Shown piece by piece: positions 2,040 to 17,241 of a stretch of DNA of 50,913 nt. Numbering within the stretch: position 1 is the first letter of the stretch; the number at the start of each line of letters is the position of its first letter. Source of the DNA: Alphaproteobacteria bacterium MedPE-SWcel (lineage in GTDB: Bacteria > Pseudomonadota > Alphaproteobacteria > Rhodobacterales > Rhodobacteraceae); NCBI GenBank assembly GCA_001874255.1, contig MPDC01000026.1, positions 1 through 50,913 on the forward strand, given 5' to 3'. The notes under the pieces are model-generated. The model ran no database searches. It was not told the origin of the DNA and saw only the letters and a program-made list of their open reading frames with translations. The translations under genes were made by a program, and so were the position numbers.

Positions 2040-3082
2040 AGCAGGGCGCCCGAATACCGAACGCCCTCGCCCGCGGTCACAGTGCCGAGGCGGGACACAG
2101 TTTCGCCTTCGGCCGTCAATAGCTCGCTCACCGCATCGGCCCGGTCCGCATCGACAACCACGATCATGCCGATGCCGCAATTGAAGGTCTTCAGCATCTC
2201 GGTCTCTTCTATGCCGCCCACGGTTGCAAGCCATTTGAAAATGCCCGGCAGGTCCCATGCACCCAGATCAATATCCGCCCCGAGCCCATCGGGCAGCACA
2301 CGTGGCAGGTTTTCCGTCAGCCCGCCGCCGGTGATATGCGCCAGGGCGTTGACCCCGCCGGAGCGCACGGCAGACAGCACCTGTTTGACATAGAGGCGGG
2401 TCGGCGTCAGCAAGGCCGCGCCCAATGTTCCCGCGCCGAAGGGGCTGTCGGCATCCCAGTCGAGGCCCGAGTATTTGACGACCTGACGCACCAGAGAATA
2501 TCCGTTGGAATGCACCCCGTCAGACCCGAGGCCCAGCAAGACATCGCCTTCTGACACCCCGTCCGGCAGAGCCGTTCCGCGTTCCATCGCCCCCACGGCA
2601 AAGCCTGCGAGATCAAAGTCGCCTTTGGGGTACATGCCCGGCATCTCGGCGGTCTCGCCGCCGATCAGGGCGCAGCCAGACCGCACGCAGCCCTCGGCAA
2701 TGCCTTCGATAATGCGGGCGGCTGTTTCTGTCTCCAGCTTGCCGGTGGCAAAATAATCGAGAAAAAAGAGCGGCTCCGCGCCCTGACACACCAGATCGTT
2801 GACACACATGGCCACCAGGTCGATCCCGACGCCATCCACATGGCCGGTGTCGATCGCGATACGCAGCTTGGTGCCGACGCCATCCGTCGCGCCGACCAGA
2901 ATCGGGTCTTCGAAGCCTGCGGCCTTCAGATCGAAAAGAGCACCAAACCCGCCCAGACCGCTCATCACGCCGGAGCGGTTTGTGCGTTTGGCTGCCGGTT
3001 TGATCCGGTCCACCAGAGCATTGCCCGCATCAATGTCCACCCCTGCATCCGCATAGGTCAAACCGTTTTTGCCGCTGGTCAT
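2036..3082 (-). CDS. purM: Phosphoribosylformylglycinamidine cyclo-ligase (AIR synthetase)
   Basis: ATP-dependent ring closure of FGAM to AIR, the fifth step of purine synthesis. The 348-residue protein begins [17 protein letters not shown] and has the family signatures [33 protein letters not shown], and the dimer/active-site segment around [12 protein letters not shown]. The ATG at 3082 is preceded by AAAGGAG eight bases upstream, which decides against an in-frame upstream extension. It is first of the purM-purN pair, an order common in proteobacteria. A 341-bp divergent spacer separates it from an unknown gene pair. Confidence 0.95.
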
Positions 3083-8759: not shown

Positions 8760-10625
8760 TTGGCAACCACCCCTTACCTCCTGCAACGCGGCTCCACCTG
8801 GAGCTGGCGTCGGCGCGTGCCCGGGTTTTCCACAAAAACCAGACATTGGCAGCTGTCTTTGCGCACCACGGACCGGTCGATTGCGAGTATCATCGCACGC
8901 AGATTGAACTACGAGAGTGACCGGATGCTGGATGCAATCACCTATGGAAAGCTGACCCCCGCCCAGGCCAAGGCCTGGCTGACCTCGGTTGTGCGCAGGG
9001 AGCTTGACCGCATCAAGCGTCAGCGCATGATCAGCCGGATGGACCCGGTGGGCTCATCCGAGCTAAACCAGCGTCTCGATTGGGCGACGGCGCGCGCCTG
9101 GTCTCACCTGGCGAGCAAGGGACTGCATCCGGAGCTCTCCGATCACGACCGAGATCGTGTACTCAATGAAGGTTCGAGCGAGGCAGACATCGCGTCGCTT
9201 GAGCTGATGCTTGGCATCCTGTCGCGTGACGTGCTGTCCGAGGCGGGCGTCAACAAGATGCTTCGCGCTGCGCGGGACAGCATTCAGACGGCAACAGGCG
9301 AGACCCTGACCCCTGCGGCCGAGACGGTTCTCTCTCTGAGGCAACTGCTGCTGGCCGGAAAAGCCGCTGCCTGGTCCGCATCCGAAGGTCGGGAAGATCC
9401 GAGCCTTGAGCAAGCGCGTGCCCTTGCGCGGGGAATTCTTGACGGCGACCCTGCCGAGATCATCGACACCCGCGAGCCTCTTCCCGTCCCTCAGGAAGCC
9501 ACTCTGATCGACGCACCTGCCCCAACTCAAGTCTCTGCCCAGAGGCCCGAGTTCAGTTTTGACCCGGACATTGTCGCAGTCGTAGAGCGCATCAACGCCG
9601 AGAGGGATCGCGATCACATCAAGGAAGACACCAGAAAGCAGCTTGCCTCGCAGGCGCGCCTGTTCATCAAGGCAACCGGCATCACCGACGTTCGAGACAT
9701 TACGCAGGGCCATCTCAAGTTCTACAAATCGATCCTGCAACGCCTTCCGACGAGCTATGGGAAAAGCGCGAAGGACGCGGACAGGACCCTCGATGAGCTT
9801 CTGGCACGCGCCGAGGATCTGCCCGCGAAAAAGGTCGGCCTCTCGCCGCGTACGATCAACGGACATCTGGACCGGTTCAAGCTCATCTTCCAGTTCGCCA
9901 GGAGTGAAAACATCGCGATTTCGGAAACGATCGAACTCGGCCTGCTCCGTGTCCGGGAAGAAAAGCGCAACCGCGACAAGCGCGAAGCCTTTACCTTGCC
10001 GGAACTCCAGCAGGTCTTCCGGCATCCGATCTGGACGGGGTGTCGGTCACCATCGCGGCGCCACGAGCGCGGCAACACCGTCAAGGCGGATGGGCTCTAC
10101 TGGGGGCCGATCCTGGCTGGCTACAGCGGCGCCCGGCGGGAGGAGGTTCTCGGACTGGAACCCCGTGATGTCGTGTCCGTCGACGGCATTGCCTGCTACC
10201 ACATCCGGGACAACATGCACCGCGGGGTCAAGACCTTCAGTTCGGAGCGCCTGGTTCCCATTCACGAGCACCTGATCGAACTGGGCTTTCTCAGACATGT
10301 CGAAGAGATGCGCCAGCGCGGCGCCACAGCCGTCTTCCCCGAGTTGATCGCGACCAATGACAGCCAATCCTTCGGCGACAAGATCTATTACAACTGGGCG
10401 AAGGCGCTGGTTCTGCAACTGGACGGCAACCCGAGGGAGCTCTGCTTCCACTCGTTCCGCCATTATGCCATCGCCCACCTGAAGGAGCTGCCCGAGGTCA
10501 GCGAGAAACAGCGCCGTGACCTGGTCGGACACAGCGGCGGTGACGTGCATGATGAGCAATATGATGTCGCCACGTCGATGACCGTGATGAGCAGCGTGGT
10601 TGCGAAGCTGCCGCGATTGTTCTGA
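8760..10625 (+). CDS. Tyrosine recombinase / site-specific integrase
   Basis: A 621-residue integrase. The N-terminal 60 residues resemble the DUF6538 domain seen in large proteobacterial integrases. A SAM-like core-binding region lies at about 270-400. The catalytic domain shows GYSGARREEVLGLEP (first Arg, about 456), CFHSFRHYAIAHL (HxxR, about 565) and LVGHSGGDVHDEQYD (His and nucleophile Tyr, about 590-601), so it looks intact. TTG is the start, chosen because GGAGG lies seven bases upstream and no ATG or GTG fits. Its position and direction next to tRNA-Asn imply integration there. There is no excisionase, phage or conjugation gene downstream, so it is probably a remnant or the left end of a larger island. 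Confidence 0.92.
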   Translation: MATTPYLLQRGSTWSWRRRVPGFSTKTRHWQLSLRTTDRSIASIIARRLNYESDRMLDAITYGKLTPAQAKAWLTSVVRRELDRIKRQRMISRMDPVGSSELNQRLDWATARAWSHLASKGLHPELSDHDRDRVLNEGSSEADIASLELMLGILSRDVLSEAGVNKMLRAARDSIQTATGETLTPAAETVLSLRQLLLAGKAAAWSASEGREDPSLEQARALARGILDGDPAEIIDTREPLPVPQEATLIDAPAPTQVSAQRPEFSFDPDIVAVVERINAERDRDHIKEDTRKQLASQARLFIKATGITDVRDITQGHLKFYKSILQRLPTSYGKSAKDADRTLDELLARAEDLPAKKVGLSPRTINGHLDRFKLIFQFARSENIAISETIELGLLRVREEKRNRDKREAFTLPELQQVFRHPIWTGCRSPSRRHERGNTVKADGLYWGPILAGYSGARREEVLGLEPRDVVSVDGIACYHIRDNMHRGVKTFSSERLVPIHEHLIELGFLRHVEEMRQRGATAVFPELIATNDSQSFGDKIYYNWAKALVLQLDGNPRELCFHSFRHYAIAHLKELPEVSEKQRRDLVGHSGGDVHDEQYDVATSMTVMSSVVAKLPRLF

Positions 10626-11266: not shown

Positions 11267-13753
11267 TCAATGGCTGACAAAACTGACCAGTAGAGAGTCT
11301 GCAGTGGCCCAGGCCTTATGAAGCCCATCCAATACAGGGACTTCATCTGTTGACACCTGTTCAATCTCAAGCATGGAAGCCCGTAAATCCGCCAGTCCCA
11401 ACACAGCGGCAGACCCTGCCAAACGATGAGCTTCTTGCCGATGGTCGGCTGTCAACTGCGGGCTCCGTGCTAGTGTGTCACTCAGTTTGCGCATGTCATT
11501 GCGGAAAACAGACAGGAAATGCTGAGCCTTCTCGCGGCCAACGGCATCTATGAATTGCTCGATGTCAGCCTCATCCGACGGCTGCCCGGTGGCGGGTCTT
11601 CGGGGCGCAAAGGCTGCGCCGCTGCGGCTGCGGCGATCCACCAGATCGCCGAGATCGGCTCGGCTGATCGGTTTGGTCACGACTTCTGCAAAACCAGCAG
11701 CAAGAATACGCACGTGATCCTCCGCCGCAGCATGGGCAGTCAGAGCGACGATATCGACCCCCTCGGCCAATCCTTCGGCGCGCACGCGACGCAGCACTTC
11801 CAGCCCATCGATCTCGGGCATGCTGATATCTGTCAGGATCAAATCAAATGCCTGTGCCTTGATCGCGGCAATCCCGTCGCCGCCCCCGGCTGCAGACACG
11901 ACCTCATGTCCGAGCTTGCCAAGCATTTTCTCAAGCAGCAGTCGGTTTACGTCATTGTCCTCGATCACCAAGAGCTTCTTTTTTCGATGTGTATCGATCT
12001 TCTTCTGGGACGTTTCGGGCGGGATCAGCTTTGACGAGGGCAATGGAAGGGTGAAGCTGAAAATACTCCCCTCTCCAAGCTCACTCTCGCAGGAGATCTG
12101 TCCCTCCATCAACGAGACCAGCCGTTGCGAAATCGCCAGTCCCAGACCTGTCCCCTCGCTGCCACGCGTGTAGCTTGGGTCGATCATCATGAAATCATCA
12201 AAGATATGCTCCAGATGTTCGGCAGCGATCCCTTTGCCAGTATCCGCGACGCTGAACTCCACCTGATCGTTTTCCTTGCGAATGACATCCACCGAAACCG
12301 CGCCATCCTTGGTGAATTTCAAAGCATTGCCGATCAGATTGAGCAGGACCTGCTGAATGCTCCGGGCCCGGCCGATCACACCGACGTCTGGGCCAAGATT
12401 GCAGAACACGCTAAGTTCATTGTTGTTTTTCTTCGCGTTGGCCTGTTGGCTGTCAACGAGACCATGGACAAGCCCTTGCAGATCGAAACTCCGTGCCGTT
12501 TCAAATTCTGCGCCGGCCTCGAGCCGAGACAATTCCAGAACGTCGTTCACATGATGAAGCAACAATTCACCGGAAACGCGCATGGCCTGAAGGAATTTCT
12601 GCTGTTCCACCGAACACGGCATGTCATCCAGGATATCGAGAGACCCCAAAATCCCGGTGAGCGGCGTGCGCATTTCGTGGCTCATCACCGTGAGCAATCT
12701 GTCCCTGGCCTTCACGCCCGCCAGCGCGTCATCACGGGCCTGACGCAACTCTTCCTCTGCACGCAGCCGGTTTGAGATATCGCGCACATAGCTGACCAAC
12801 ACTTGATCCCCGCCCGAGCGGCTGACCGTGAGCGAGACCTCGACCGGCAGACAGGCACCCGATTTCCGCGTCGCGGTCAATTGAATACGCCCGTCTCGTT
12901 CCCCCATCCCAGCGGGCAGTTGCCCCGCGGCGATTCTGGCCGGGTCCGCCGACACGAGGCGCTCAAAGGGCATTCCCATTGCCTCATCGGCAGAATAGTC
13001 GAAGATCCGCTCGGCCGCACCGTTCATGGCGGTAATCCGACCGCTCTCATCGGCCATCAGAATCGCGTCAAGCGAGGATGTCACCATGGCCTCCGCCCGG
13101 GCGGCGTCCTGTGCCTGCAGGTAGGCCAGCCGCTGCCCCCGCCGATAGAGCCACAGGATCACCAGTGCGGTCACGGTCAAAGCAAGCAGCAAAGTAACCA
13201 CGACAATCGACAGCCGTAGAAACAGCGTATGCAGGATGACCCGTTCGGCGCCTGCGGTTTCTGCTTGCAGGACCACACCGATCAACGCGAGTTCGCGTAC
13301 TTCGTCGCCATCTTCCGCGACCAACTGGCGCAAGAGGCCCAGACCGTCCAGAAGCACCTCATCGGACGAATCGATCAAACCTGCCTGCTTCGTCAGGCCT
13401 TGCGTAAGCCGTTCAAGAGTCGCACCGCCTTCTGTATTGTCTCGTATTTTCGCGTAGTGCAGACTCTCGCGGTAGGTGGCGACCCGGCTGTAATAGATAT
13501 CAAACTGGCGTCTGAGTTCCGGCAGATCCGCCGCTGTGGAGGCTCCGAGAACGGCGCGCTGGTATTTCAGGTAGTCGACCTCGGCCTGCGACAGGGTCCA
13601 CTGCAGATTATCTGTCGCGGCGGAGGCCAGCGCTTCGATACGGCGCTGGACGTCCTTGCCCAATCGAACAGACTGAACCGCCAGTAGTATCAAAACTACG
13701 GCGGCTGCAGAAATCAACCAGCGTTGAACAGTCGGAACCTTTAGGCGTTGCAA
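11267..13753 (-). CDS. Hybrid sensor histidine kinase (PAS-HisKA-HATPase-REC-HPt)
   Basis: An 828-residue inner-membrane phosphorelay kinase. TM1 is at about 11-30, a periplasmic helical sensor region at about 31-177, TM2 at about 178-203, and PAS at about 222-330. HisKA has MSHEMRTPLTG with H359. HATPase has N476, ADTGKG and GTGLGLA. The receiver domain (about 593-705) has D642 in LTDISMPEIDG and K694. The C-terminal HPt has H776 in AHRLAGSAAVLGL. All phosphorelay residues are present. The TTG at 13753 is the only available start; AGGAG lies 11 bases before it. The gene lies 43 bp downstream of a periplasmic pterin-binding-like protein and near a divergent LuxR regulator, which suggest its ligand-binding partner and output. 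Confidence 0.93.
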   Translation of the reverse strand: MQRLKVPTVQRWLISAAAVVLILLAVQSVRLGKDVQRRIEALASAATDNLQWTLSQAEVDYLKYQRAVLGASTAADLPELRRQFDIYYSRVATYRESLHYAKIRDNTEGGATLERLTQGLTKQAGLIDSSDEVLLDGLGLLRQLVAEDGDEVRELALIGVVLQAETAGAERVILHTLFLRLSIVVVTLLLALTVTALVILWLYRRGQRLAYLQAQDAARAEAMVTSSLDAILMADESGRITAMNGAAERIFDYSADEAMGMPFERLVSADPARIAAGQLPAGMGERDGRIQLTATRKSGACLPVEVSLTVSRSGGDQVLVSYVRDISNRLRAEEELRQARDDALAGVKARDRLLTVMSHEMRTPLTGILGSLDILDDMPCSVEQQKFLQAMRVSGELLLHHVNDVLELSRLEAGAEFETARSFDLQGLVHGLVDSQQANAKKNNNELSVFCNLGPDVGVIGRARSIQQVLLNLIGNALKFTKDGAVSVDVIRKENDQVEFSVADTGKGIAAEHLEHIFDDFMMIDPSYTRGSEGTGLGLAISQRLVSLMEGQISCESELGEGSIFSFTLPLPSSKLIPPETSQKKIDTHRKKKLLVIEDNDVNRLLLEKMLGKLGHEVVSAAGGGDGIAAIKAQAFDLILTDISMPEIDGLEVLRRVRAEGLAEGVDIVALTAHAAAEDHVRILAAGFAEVVTKPISRADLGDLVDRRSRSGAAFAPRRPATGQPSDEADIEQFIDAVGREKAQHFLSVFRNDMRKLSDTLARSPQLTADHRQEAHRLAGSAAVLGLADLRASMLEIEQVSTDEVPVLDGLHKAWATADSLLVSFVSH

Positions 13754-13796
13754 GGGCCCGGGTACTCCTGAATAGTGGCCGCCGAAGCGGCAAAGT

Positions 13797-14270
13797 TTAT
13801 TTTACGGAGATCCTGTTCAGCTGCCAGATGCTGCGTGAATAGATTTCCTCGGTACGGAATTCAGCACCGCTATCATAGGGATAGACCAGCCATAGCGGCC
13901 CCTTGTCCCGCAAGGACATGGTTTTTCCGTTGCGCATGTAGGCGATCATCGGCCCGCCTTTGCGCGCATCGCTCATTGGGATTTCAACCGCATAGTCGTT
14001 CACTGCTGCAGCCTCCAGGACCCCTTCGCTTACGCCGACATGGGCCATCAGAACATCGAGAGAGACCCCCACAAATTCCTGTACGCCGTCACTCCAGATC
14101 GTGGTGGTGTTCACCTCCCGCTCTTCGATCGCGCGCAATTGATCTATGGAGAACTCCTGTACATCATCGCCGTTTCGCAGGGTCAGGACCACGTCAGCCT
14201 CCGACGCGATGGCCGGCAGGGATAACATCAGCGCAAATATCGTCGCCACAGTCATAAAAATGCGGTTCAT
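13797..14270 (-). CDS. Periplasmic SUOX-fold protein, putative pterin-binding (PruR-like)
   Basis: A 157-residue exported protein: signal peptide MNRIFMTVATIFALMLSLPAIASEA, then a short oxidoreductase molybdopterin-binding-like (SUOX-fold) domain with FSIDQLRAIEEREVNTTTIW, FVGVSLDVLMAHVGV and DKGPLWLVYPYD. It is far too short for a molybdoenzyme and lacks the usual Moco cysteine region, matching the COG3915 putative pterin-binding group and the idea of PruR in Agrobacterium tumefaciens, which binds periplasmic pterins to control a signalling partner. AGGAG precedes the ATG at 14270 by seven bases, overriding a longer in-frame reading. It is co-directional with the hybrid kinase, 43 bp apart. 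Family call is good; ligand is inferred. Confidence 0.75.
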   Translation of the reverse strand: MNRIFMTVATIFALMLSLPAIASEADVVLTLRNGDDVQEFSIDQLRAIEEREVNTTTIWSDGVQEFVGVSLDVLMAHVGVSEGVLEAAAVNDYAVEIPMSDARKGGPMIAYMRNGKTMSLRDKGPLWLVYPYDSGAEFRTEEIYSRSIWQLNRISVK

Positions 14271-14359
14271 AGGGCATCTCCTAATTCGGTCAGGCCCCGA
14301 AATGAGGCTTTGTCCGATTGTGGCACAGCGCAGCAAAAACGGAATGAGCACCTGCGTAT

Positions 14360-14384
14360 AGTCTGCTAGACTTTCGTATACGAA
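14360..14384. promoter_or_regulatory. Two adjacent inverted repeats in a divergent control region
   Basis: AGTCT-GCT-AGACT (14360-14372) is followed directly by the perfect 12-bp palindrome TTCGTATACGAA (14373-14384). They lie 90 bases upstream of the PruR-like gene and about 115 bases upstream of the regulator gene, in the 228-bp space between the two divergent units. This is a plausible operator for a dimeric regulator such as the LuxR-type protein encoded next door. No binding evidence exists in sequence. Confidence 0.45.
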
Positions 14385-14498
14385 GGGTAAACTACATCGT
14401 CCAAAGTTGAACTGTTTTGCCTCCTATCCGGTGATCCGGTGCTCTAGCCTTGACCTGAGGCAGGCCGATTTGCCGACCTTGTCAGGGAGGAGCAAGAC

Positions 14499-15227
14499 AT
14501 GAGAAGCCAAATTAGAGCCCTCAGTAGCAAATTCATTTCAAATGTTGATGGAAATGAAAGACCTGCGTCGGTAAAGTCCTTTCACAAGGGTAAAAATAGG
14601 GTACCGGGCCACATGCGTATTCTTCTGGCAGATGATCACGACATGGTACGTGACACAATTTCGGCGTATCTCAGTTCCGAAGGCGGGGCAGAGATCACGG
14701 CGACCACAGATCTGCCCCGCGCCATGAAGGAACTCGAAGATAACGGCCCCTTTGACCTGGTGCTTCTGGACTACAATATGCCCGGCATGAATGGTCTCGA
14801 CGGTCTGACGCGCGCCCTCAAGGCCAATGGCGGCGGCGGCGTCGCGATTCTGTCCGGCAGCGCGCCGACACATACCGCACAGGACGCTTTGGATGCCGGC
14901 GCCATCGGCTTCATTCCCAAGACGATGGGCGCTCAGTCGCTATTGAACGCGGTGCGTTTCATGAGTGCCGGTGAAATCTACGCCCCGGTGGAGCTGATGC
15001 GCCGCGACGCCGCTGCGCCGACCCATCCGCTGCTGGCGCAACTCAGCCCGCGTGAGATCGAGGTCCTGAGTGGTCTGTGCCGAGGCCAGTCGAACAAGGA
15101 AATTGCACGGGATCTGGGCCTGCAGGAAGTGACGATCAAATTGCATGTTCGCACGCTTTGCCGAAAGCTGGACGCGAAGAACCGGACCCAGGCCGCCATG
15201 ACAGCGAAAGAGGCCGGTCTGTTCTGA
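14499..15227 (+). CDS. LuxR/NarL-family response regulator
   Basis: A 242-residue regulator. After a 38-residue N-terminal extension, the receiver domain begins MRILLADDHDMVRDT, with phosphoacceptor D91 in VLLDYNMPGMNG and K141 in GFIPKTMG. The C-terminal LuxR helix-turn-helix is LSPREIEVLSGLCRGQSNKEIARDLGLQEVTIKLHVRTL (shown by its ends: LSPREIEVL and VTIKLHVRTL). The first ATG is supported by AGGGAGGAG six bases upstream, though the ATG at residue 39 would give the classical N-terminus. It is divergent from the PruR-like/hybrid-kinase operon and is its likely phosphorelay output. Confidence 0.92.
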   Translation: MRSQIRALSSKFISNVDGNERPASVKSFHKGKNRVPGHMRILLADDHDMVRDTISAYLSSEGGAEITATTDLPRAMKELEDNGPFDLVLLDYNMPGMNGLDGLTRALKANGGGGVAILSGSAPTHTAQDALDAGAIGFIPKTMGAQSLLNAVRFMSAGEIYAPVELMRRDAAAPTHPLLAQLSPREIEVLSGLCRGQSNKEIARDLGLQEVTIKLHVRTLCRKLDAKNRTQAAMTAKEAGLF

Positions 15228-15555: not shown

Positions 15556-16872
15556 TCAGGCGAAGCCAGCCGGGATTGCGTCGATGCCTGCGTTGGTTGA
15601 CGGCGTCGGGGGCGTCGAGGATGCAACTTGCATCTGCACCATATGGAGCGGCGTCGACCCCGAATTCTCAATGCGCCTGCTGCGCCCTGCGGGGATTCGG
15701 GCGCTCTGGGTTTCCCAGATGCGCCGGATGTGACTGCCAAGTGTGATCAGCGCATCTCCCTTCACCACCACCCAATGCTCTGCCGCACCGGCCTCCGCGC
15801 GCAGCCGTACCGCCTCTCCCGGCTTGACCACCAGCCGCTTCAGCGAAAACCCCGGCCCCATGGCCAACGTCTCCTGGCGGCCCCAATCGTGATCGGCGCT
15901 GCTTGAAACCGGCGTGTCACCGGCGGGAACTGTCGCAAGGCTTTGGTAAATCGCCATCATGTCGGCCGCGTGAGGATGGACGGCGGCCTGTTCCTCGAGC
16001 CGGTCCGCCTCCCAGCCGACCAACCCCAGATCCGGCCGCCGATCCAGAGCGGCATCGCGATCCCAATCGCTATATTCGGTCCAGGCCGTGTCGACCTGGA
16101 TCGCCACCACACTCCGGGCACGCTGCGCCACGGCCTTTTCAAAGGACTGCGCCTTCACGCGGCCATAATATCCTTGGTCCAGATGGATGGCGCCGTCTGC
16201 GGTCGTGCCGCGCTGGAATGCATTCTTCACCGGCAGAAATACGCGGCTTGCGTGGAATTTATAGGCCGCCAGAAGCATATCAACCCGCGCCACATAGATC
16301 CCCATCCCACACAGTTGATGGTTGCCCACCAAGAGATTGGACAGCGAGGTCTGCCGATCGGCGGGCATGATCCGGCTAACCGCCACCGGGGTGGTGTTGC
16401 GGGGGATCGACGTGACTTCGAGGCTGCCGTAGCCCATGTAGTCGCGGCTGCGTCGTTGCCCCAGCATGACGATCTCGCCCCGTTGTGCCGCGGGGATGGC
16501 CTGGCACAAGGCTTGATCCAGCTGGCCTGCATCCTCGAAGTCAGCCGTGGCAGGGGCCACCACAACCAAGGCATGCGGCGTATTCTGAAGCGACAGGACA
16601 GCGCTCAGCAAGGCCGCAGCCGGCTTGTGCTGGTCTGGCTCCAGGATCAATCGCGTGCCCGCGCCGGGCTTTGCCTGCCGCCGGGCGACGGAGGCGCAAT
16701 CCTGTGTCGTCACGACGATCGGAGCGGCAAAGATATCACCGGACAACCTGGCCAGAATGTCGGAATACCGGCTGCGCAGCCCCGGAGCATCTTCAAAGTG
16801 CATCGGAAGCATCCCCGACGACAGAGCGTCAGACGAATGGGTGGTACCGGCGAGAATGATGGGATGCAGCAT
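15556..16872 (-). CDS. ManC-like protein (GDP-mannose pyrophosphorylase / type II PMI family), both active sites degenerate
   Basis: The 438-residue layout follows bifunctional mannose-1-phosphate guanylyltransferase/mannose-6-phosphate isomerase: an N-terminal nucleotidyltransferase, a middle sugar-binding region (VFLPVKNAFQRG, YYGRVKAQSFEKAV), and a C-terminal cupin. However, the N-terminus reads ILAGTTHSSDALSSGMLPMHF where active enzymes have a GSGTRLWPLSR-type loop and PKQF, and the cupin reads RLRAEAGAAEHWVVVKG where active isomerases have the metal-binding Gln/His cluster before AEHW. Both catalytic signatures are gone, although the frame is open and the fold seems kept. GAGG precedes the ATG at 16872. 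It may be a regulatory or carbohydrate-binding paralog. Confidence 0.75.
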   Translation of the reverse strand: MLHPIILAGTTHSSDALSSGMLPMHFEDAPGLRSRYSDILARLSGDIFAAPIVVTTQDCASVARRQAKPGAGTRLILEPDQHKPAAALLSAVLSLQNTPHALVVVAPATADFEDAGQLDQALCQAIPAAQRGEIVMLGQRRSRDYMGYGSLEVTSIPRNTTPVAVSRIMPADRQTSLSNLLVGNHQLCGMGIYVARVDMLLAAYKFHASRVFLPVKNAFQRGTTADGAIHLDQGYYGRVKAQSFEKAVAQRARSVVAIQVDTAWTEYSDWDRDAALDRRPDLGLVGWEADRLEEQAAVHPHAADMMAIYQSLATVPAGDTPVSSSADHDWGRQETLAMGPGFSLKRLVVKPGEAVRLRAEAGAAEHWVVVKGDALITLGSHIRRIWETQSARIPAGRSRRIENSGSTPLHMVQMQVASSTPPTPSTNAGIDAIPAGFA

Positions 16873-17241
16873 TTGAACCTCGTTTTGTTGGTATTCCGTT
16901 GCATACATATTTAAACGAAATCCCCTGGTTCTGCGCCTATCCATCCGTCTCTCCCCTGCTTGCGAAAGGATAGAGACCCATCTTTGGGATAGGTATCGCC
17001 ACCTTCCGAGGGTCACAAATCACCGATATTTGAGATAACATTGTTTCGTTATGAAGAAGCTAACGCCTCTTAACCATGATCTCCTGCAACTCATTGAAAA
17101 AATTAACCAAGTATTCACCGAATCAAGACAGACGAGGCCTGATGGACAGGCCGTGTCGCTGCGAATGCCTGGTCGTTTGCGGGGGCTGGCACGGGATGGC
17201 AGGGGCTGACCTTTGACCGCGGCTGCGATACTGTCACATCC
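16873..17241. other. AT-richer divergent spacer
   Basis: These 369 bases contain no convincing gene. The middle (about 17030-17125) is markedly AT-rich, with TTAACCAT and ATTAACCAA, and probably carries promoters for the ManC-like gene and the TfoX-C gene. No definite -35/-10 pair or operator could be assigned. Confidence 0.45.

Follow-up and report, generated by a model that had tools for sequence, protein, structure and literature searches.

PruR proteins are paired with sensor kinases in many proteobacteria, in systems named PruR-DTB (DcpA-TorS-BaeS), and the available text of the review that names them also draws a PruR-DTB protein of Ruegeria pomeroyi, WP_011045932.1 (PMC13259868). A search of that text for 'response regulator' and 'phosphorelay' gave 0 matches, the literature survey returned, among the matches listed and in as much of each paper as was available, no paper dealing with a regulator or an operator of PruR-DTB systems, and the accessible portion of a paper on Phaeobacter motility (PMC12363192) does not mention the system. 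Here we describe a PruR-DTB pair in a stretch of 50,913 nucleotides from Alphaproteobacteria bacterium MedPE-SWcel, a member of the Rhodobacteraceae (contig MPDC01000026.1; henceforth the window), where a pruR-like gene, a hybrid kinase and a divergent LuxR-type response regulator adjoin one another. We consider it likely that these genes form a PruR-DTB system together with its output, in which pterin-bound PruR would act through the kinase, a phosphorelay and the regulator on a palindrome that governs transcription of surface polysaccharide genes. The PruR-kinase pair is already known; the linked regulator, the probable operator and the likely polysaccharide targets come from the present comparison, and the last two go beyond the preliminary description of this locus, which had proposed a pterin-sensing phosphorelay of three genes.

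By homology, the small exported protein is a PruR. Its gene (positions 13797-14270, minus strand; delimited by open reading frame (ORF) call, Pfam, structure matches and alignment) encodes a putative pterin-binding protein of 157 residues with a signal peptide judged by eye, and this protein matches four solved pterin-binding chains (7kp2, E 4.6e-26; 7kos, 8.8e-26; 7rkb, 2.1e-23; 7kom, 2.2e-20), the alignment to 7kos running gapless over residues 29-156. Y93 and W149 fall on Tyr104 and Trp160 of Agrobacterium tumefaciens PruR in that alignment, with a spacing of 56 in both proteins, and these two are pterin-contact residues according to the available part of the review (PMC13259868). All 115 aligned sequences keep both residues. 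The PruR-like assignment made earlier is borne out, and pterin binding by the window protein is predicted from these matches. With the PruR adjoining a Salinivibrio GGDEF-EAL protein it shares 36% identity. The window's genome also encodes an SDR protein that scores over the cut-off of NF006597 (365.9 versus 281 bits) and in which two pteridine-reductase words, TGX3RXG and YX3K, were recognised by eye; the model is named only 'SDR family oxidoreductase', and the PruA-like reading rests on TGX3RXG, a pteridine-reductase word in the review's available text (PMC13259868). E. coli FolM had been ambiguous as a probe for this gene (26% identity), and NF006597 was used instead.

The small protein might, on another reading, sense a different small molecule or the redox state, with the remaining pathway unchanged. 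PruR-DcpA pairs persist in some bacteria that have no pteridine reductase, and even in A. tumefaciens the native PruR ligand is unsettled, as far as the available text of the review goes (PMC13259868). Against a non-pterin signal stand the invariant Tyr/Trp pocket and the pteridine-reductase-type gene of the window's genome, and we regard such a signal as unlikely. Our confidence that a pterin is the live signal in the window's species is moderate.

The pruR gene lies directly upstream of the sensor kinase, which begins 43 bp past the pruR stop (11267-13753, minus strand; 828 residues from a TTG start, by ORF, Pfam and alignment). The kinase contains, in order, a transmembrane segment, a DcpA-type periplasmic domain, a second transmembrane segment (both placed by eye), and PAS, HisKA (H359), HATPase_c, Response_reg (D642) and Hpt (H776) domains; GGDEF and EAL domains were absent in a Pfam scan of the window kinase, and the 'EAL?' flag seen at loci was a short-word match without a domain. 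Its periplasmic sensor region (about residues 32-175, positions 13229-13660, minus strand; aligned, with limits set by eye) carries the motif W52-x7-D60. The profile of this region matches the N-termini of two Salinivibrio DcpA-type proteins, each a diguanylate cyclase/phosphodiesterase encoded after a pruR, with hhalign probabilities of 95.3 and 94.8%, and likewise two DTB kinases, at 97.2 and 98.0%, as against 0.17% for the control periplasmic domain of RstB. We thus assign the kinase to the DTB class by sequence, and the PruR-DTB identity of the window pair is the conclusion that we hold with the highest confidence. Homology to PruR-DcpA predicts that PruR would contact the kinase periplasmic domain, and a distance-matrix test over 91 systems, in which that domain gave PruR's largest partial correlation (0.22; 0 of 300 permutations), weakly backs such a contact.

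The ORF of the divergent regulator is open from 14499 (14499-15227, plus strand; 242 residues) and contains Response_reg and GerE domains (Pfam). The preliminary description had taken this long form with D91 as the phospho-acceptor; the gene stands, but its start and numbering probably do not, because homology begins at the inner ATG at 14613. A product of 204 residues beginning MRILLADDH is therefore more likely (14613-15227, plus strand), an NarL/LuxR-type response regulator in which D91 becomes D53. This aspartate is kept in 99 of 99 regulators. In the aligned kinases, H359 and D642 are conserved in 102/102 and H776, within the HPt domain (residues 746-800; 11354-11518, minus strand; Pfam and alignment), in 101/102 with one gap, and all four phospho-residues of a His-Asp-His-Asp relay are present in the window system. 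Phosphate transfer from the kinase HPt to the regulator is predicted from these residues. The coordinates, domains and divergent arrangement given earlier for the three genes otherwise hold in the ORF calls and Pfam, as does the His-Asp-His relay.

Is the regulator a constant companion of PruR? We sampled 295 Rhodobacteraceae genomes from 294 genera, with thresholds of E 1e-5 for PruR and E 1e-32 for the regulator, and found PruR in 167 genomes (among the matches listed) and the regulator in 154. Both occur in 138 genomes, PruR alone in 29, the regulator alone in 16 and neither in 112 (odds 33, Fisher p 1e-35). For gene order, 115 PruR loci were read, comprising the window, 14 named loci, some of which may share a genus with other sampled loci, and 100 others, mostly the best-scoring among the matches listed; L048 duplicates L004 and is included in this set but excluded from the sets of 114 and 96 used below. 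A divergent regulator relative lies within about 3 kb at 99 of the 115 loci, and the conserved linkage that had been suggested as a check on the proposal is supported. By position, the regulator is divergent and adjacent at 77 loci, divergent beyond an insert at 22 and otherwise placed at 3, and none was seen at 13, three of which have less than 1.2 kb of upstream sequence. Eight weaker PruR loci read in addition have a regulator in three cases, one of them at 38% identity. With high confidence, we take the regulator to be the partner of PruR-DTB.

Expectation-maximisation on the pruR-regulator intergenic regions yields one strong 20-bp palindrome, ACCTATMCGAAAGKATAGGT. The window's copy, TCGTATACGAAAGTCTAGCA (14364-14383, minus strand; 18.5 bits in the matrix scan), is a probable operator in the promoter region shared by pruR and the regulator, about 94 bp ahead of the pruR ATG. 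Among 96 intergenic regions, 88 beat the 99th percentile of 480 letter-shuffled regions and 78 beat all of these, scored with a matrix trained on the same 96 regions (at 21 insert loci, on 300 bases at the regulator side only). Judged by the motif, the palindrome is a putative operator to which the regulator would bind. The window's genome has just three strong matches to it, so the regulon there looks local. At C39:9531-9545 (L158:7511-8503), a 0-mismatch copy of the operator where a zinc-binding-dehydrogenase ORF starts may be due to chance and is not used as evidence, nor is a 1-mismatch match at C12:99282, which is at about chance level by estimate. A -35-like word before the regulator was dropped, as it occurred in 13 of 96 regions against a control count of 16.

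The likely targets emerged from a scan of 1.51 Mb of sequence, which returned 161 sites above 16 bits, whereas 30 column-permuted matrices gave a mean of 2.5 and at most 8. Before polysaccharide genes stand 44 of these sites, against a mean of 0.03 for the permuted matrices: 15 precede wzz, seven a wecB fusion, six a pyruvyl transferase gene, five wzx, four wza and seven others. Eight of the 44 lie inside the training stretches; the other 36, in 26 loci, are held out, and four of them overlap a predicted gene (L091 twice, L121 and L130). The inserts between pruR and the regulator are themselves polysaccharide genes, namely a WecG/TagA and sugar-transferase fusion and a GalU-type gene. Around the PruR loci there recur genes for an O-antigen-polymerase-like protein (28.8 bits, just under the cut-off), export, flippase-type and glycosyltransferase proteins, each family named from one representative, and also Wzz-like genes recognised by eye without a Pfam match. 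Sugar-transferase genes of PF02397 are mostly one to four per genome, so that by estimate about 1 in 114 stretches should hold one by chance; 22 of 114 loci carry a gene of the WecG/TagA-sugar-transferase fusion cluster. Regulator, pruR and kinase sit mid-cluster among polysaccharide genes on plasmids of Ruegeria sp. B32 and Sulfitobacter faviae, the system of Pacificitalea manganoxidans is on the rhamnose-operon plasmid pDY25-D, and on a Paracoccus seriniphilus plasmid the closest glycosyltransferase is about 7 kb away.

The probable target in the window is a manC-like gene (15556-17016, minus strand; likely start ATG 16872 or 16908), which scores 151 bits, under the cut-off of 373, in TIGR01479, the mannose-1-phosphate guanylyltransferase/mannose-6-phosphate isomerase family. 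Scan and alignment place three operator half-sites before it (16936-16994, minus strand: 16982-16994, 16960-16973 and 16936-16949), and these can be recognised in 5 of 5 aligned genomes, where they differ by one or two substitutions. The more distant locus L147 has a site of 15.1 bits at its manC-like gene; four manC-like loci lay at contig ends.

The same three-gene relay could exist with the palindrome read by another transcription factor, the tie to polysaccharide genes then reflecting shared location only. In keeping with this, L013, L072, L116, L145 and L147 have a site before pruR even though no regulator lies in the fetched stretch. Four of these five genomes hold a regulator elsewhere (G089, G215, G128 and G187), L013, a named record, having been outside that search. 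Against a different reader, no site above 13 bits occurs at the five weaker pruR loci without an adjoining regulator (L228, L229, L231, L232 and L233), nor any above 16 bits at five main-set loci without one (L109, L119, L131, L142 and L144); regulator loci without a pruR match (L216, L217 and L220) keep sites beside manC/sugar-dehydrogenase genes, wzz or wecB, and several recognition-helix residues are invariant across 99 regulators. We find a different reader of the palindrome improbable. As for the automatic annotation of relatives as 'molybdopterin-dependent oxidoreductase', a sulfite-oxidase-like (SUOX-type) molybdenum enzyme has a Pfam Oxidored_molyb match in its favour (28.6 bits, cut-off 24) but is contradicted by the protein itself, whose 157 residues include no cysteine and hence no molybdenum ligand of known kind, and whose best solved matches are pterin-binding proteins.

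Several observations weigh against the PruR-DTB system with an attached polysaccharide output as we propose it. The window kinase has WX7D, the D form of the WX7E motif; of 102 kinases, 73 carry E and 29 carry D at position +8. The regulator search scored ten candidates per genome, eight of the 96 intergenic regions have no good site, a site persists at five of the ten PruR loci that lack a regulator although 4 kb or more of upstream sequence was read, and L234, with a distant regulator relative (38%), has none. Matches with up to two mismatches number 10 in the window's genome versus 47 for a reversed control. A polysaccharide-family gene occurs in just 47 of 114 loci, in stretches of 13.2 kb on average. 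At the manC-like gene, the window's site (16975-16994), the best in the window apart from the pruR/regulator copy, reaches just 10.0 bits, and an unrelated site at 3039 reaches 9.8 bits; four relatives give 7.9, 10.7, 11.8 and 17.0 bits for the corresponding site, and the manC-like genes of the more distant L055 and L100 have none. Finally, outside the Rhodobacteraceae a regulator was found at only 1 of 21 PruR loci (20 non-family matches and one plasmid, several ending at contig edges), so the wiring of PruR-DTB to this regulator looks like a speciality of the group.

Taken as a mechanism, the favoured PruR-DTB relay would run as follows. Exported PruR would bind a reduced pterin in the periplasm and, thus loaded, would sit on the kinase periplasmic domain and set the balance of kinase activity. 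Phosphate would pass from H359 to D642 to H776 and on to the aspartate of the divergent regulator, which would bind ACCTATMCGAAAGKATAGGT in the pruR/regulator promoter region as feedback and also surface-polysaccharide promoters: that of the manC-like neighbour in the window and, in relatives, those of wzz, wza/wzx, pyruvyl-transferase and sugar-dehydrogenase genes. In this way exopolysaccharide expression would be set by a pterin cue in the periplasm, acting through transcription, by either activation or repression.

The regulator also occurs without PruR, and we read the regulator-only stretches of 12 of the 16 genomes without a PruR match. In five of the 12, PruR-DTB is replaced by a multi-PAS hybrid kinase that is co-directional with the regulator, and in four of these five (L216:3227-5989, L217:6617-9595, L219:3129-5897 and L220:6172-9120) the kinase bears GxNCRF, which we take to be the LOV signature. 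Two such kinases tested against the YtvA blue-light family gave E 5e-31 and 9e-32, below the family cut-off. Three of the five multi-PAS-kinase loci (L216, L217 and L220) keep the palindrome beside polysaccharide genes (manC/sugar-dehydrogenase, wzz or wecB), and the output module seems more stable than its input. At L224, L225 and L226 the regulator has a DTB-like kinase next to it but the interval between the two gives no pruR match, the sensor protein apparently having been lost, moved or become too divergent to find; at L218, L222, L223 and L227 no other part of the system was recognised near the regulator. A light input to the same output is possible at the LOV-kinase loci. We tentatively entertain, as a broader view, that Rhodobacteraceae share one regulator-palindrome-polysaccharide module with interchangeable inputs, PruR-DTB in most lineages having it, and in some a hybrid kinase of the LOV blue-light type. 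Pterins are excreted, redox-active metabolites and, if this view is true, would be a public cue setting polysaccharide expression much as light does.

Some further observations concern these genes and their surroundings. Of the extra sites in 14 other genomes scanned, a few adjoin genes that look by eye like sugar-transfer or sugar-nucleotide genes (L169, L170 and L171) and others adjoin unrelated or unclear genes (L168, L172, L173 and L176); neither group is used as evidence. At L117, L011 (Sulfitobacter dubius) and L105 (compare L180), sites precede a small secreted-protein gene adjoining very large surface-protein genes, a possible second target class. After the PruR-kinase pairs on Agrobacterium and Rhizobium plasmids (L183 and L214) comes a gene for an HD-domain phosphohydrolase, which might be a further output. 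Of 623 plasmid records with PruR-like genes, 263 are from Klebsiella and 392 are predicted conjugative, and most of the 40 matches listed are annotated as molybdopterin-dependent oxidoreductase; a search of viral contigs gave no match. Downstream of the window kinase, an ORF at 8760-10625 (plus strand) is phage integrase-like by eye and has only DUF6538 in Pfam; none of the other loci contains a relative.

The proposed system would give the kinase class of PruR systems, for which the available text of the review states no output, a concrete one consisting of a regulator, a DNA motif and a set of genes, in bacteria whose way of life alternates between swimming and sticking, and it makes pterin-dependent gene regulation testable with a single promoter reporter. 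With PruR-DTB, for instance in R. pomeroyi, the window shares the two-gene order, an exported PruR, the DcpA-type periplasmic domain and a PAS-HisKA-HATPase-REC kinase; the HPt domain, linked LuxR-type regulator, conserved operator and polysaccharide targets described here set it apart from PruR-DTB as presented in the available text of the review. The regulator shares REC and a GerE helix-turn-helix with NarL/FixJ-type regulators such as NarL and ErdR, but scores far under their family cut-offs (108 of 250 and 100 of 390 bits, respectively). With A. tumefaciens PruR-DcpA, the window has in common PruR, a homologous periplasmic sensor domain (tested against the Salinivibrio DcpA-type proteins) and a polysaccharide or biofilm output; the Agrobacterium output is GGDEF/EAL turnover of cyclic di-GMP, whereas that of the window is a proposed phosphorelay and transcription. 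This comparison suggests that pterin signalling may converge on surface polysaccharide by two wirings, through cyclic di-GMP in Agrobacterium and through transcription here.

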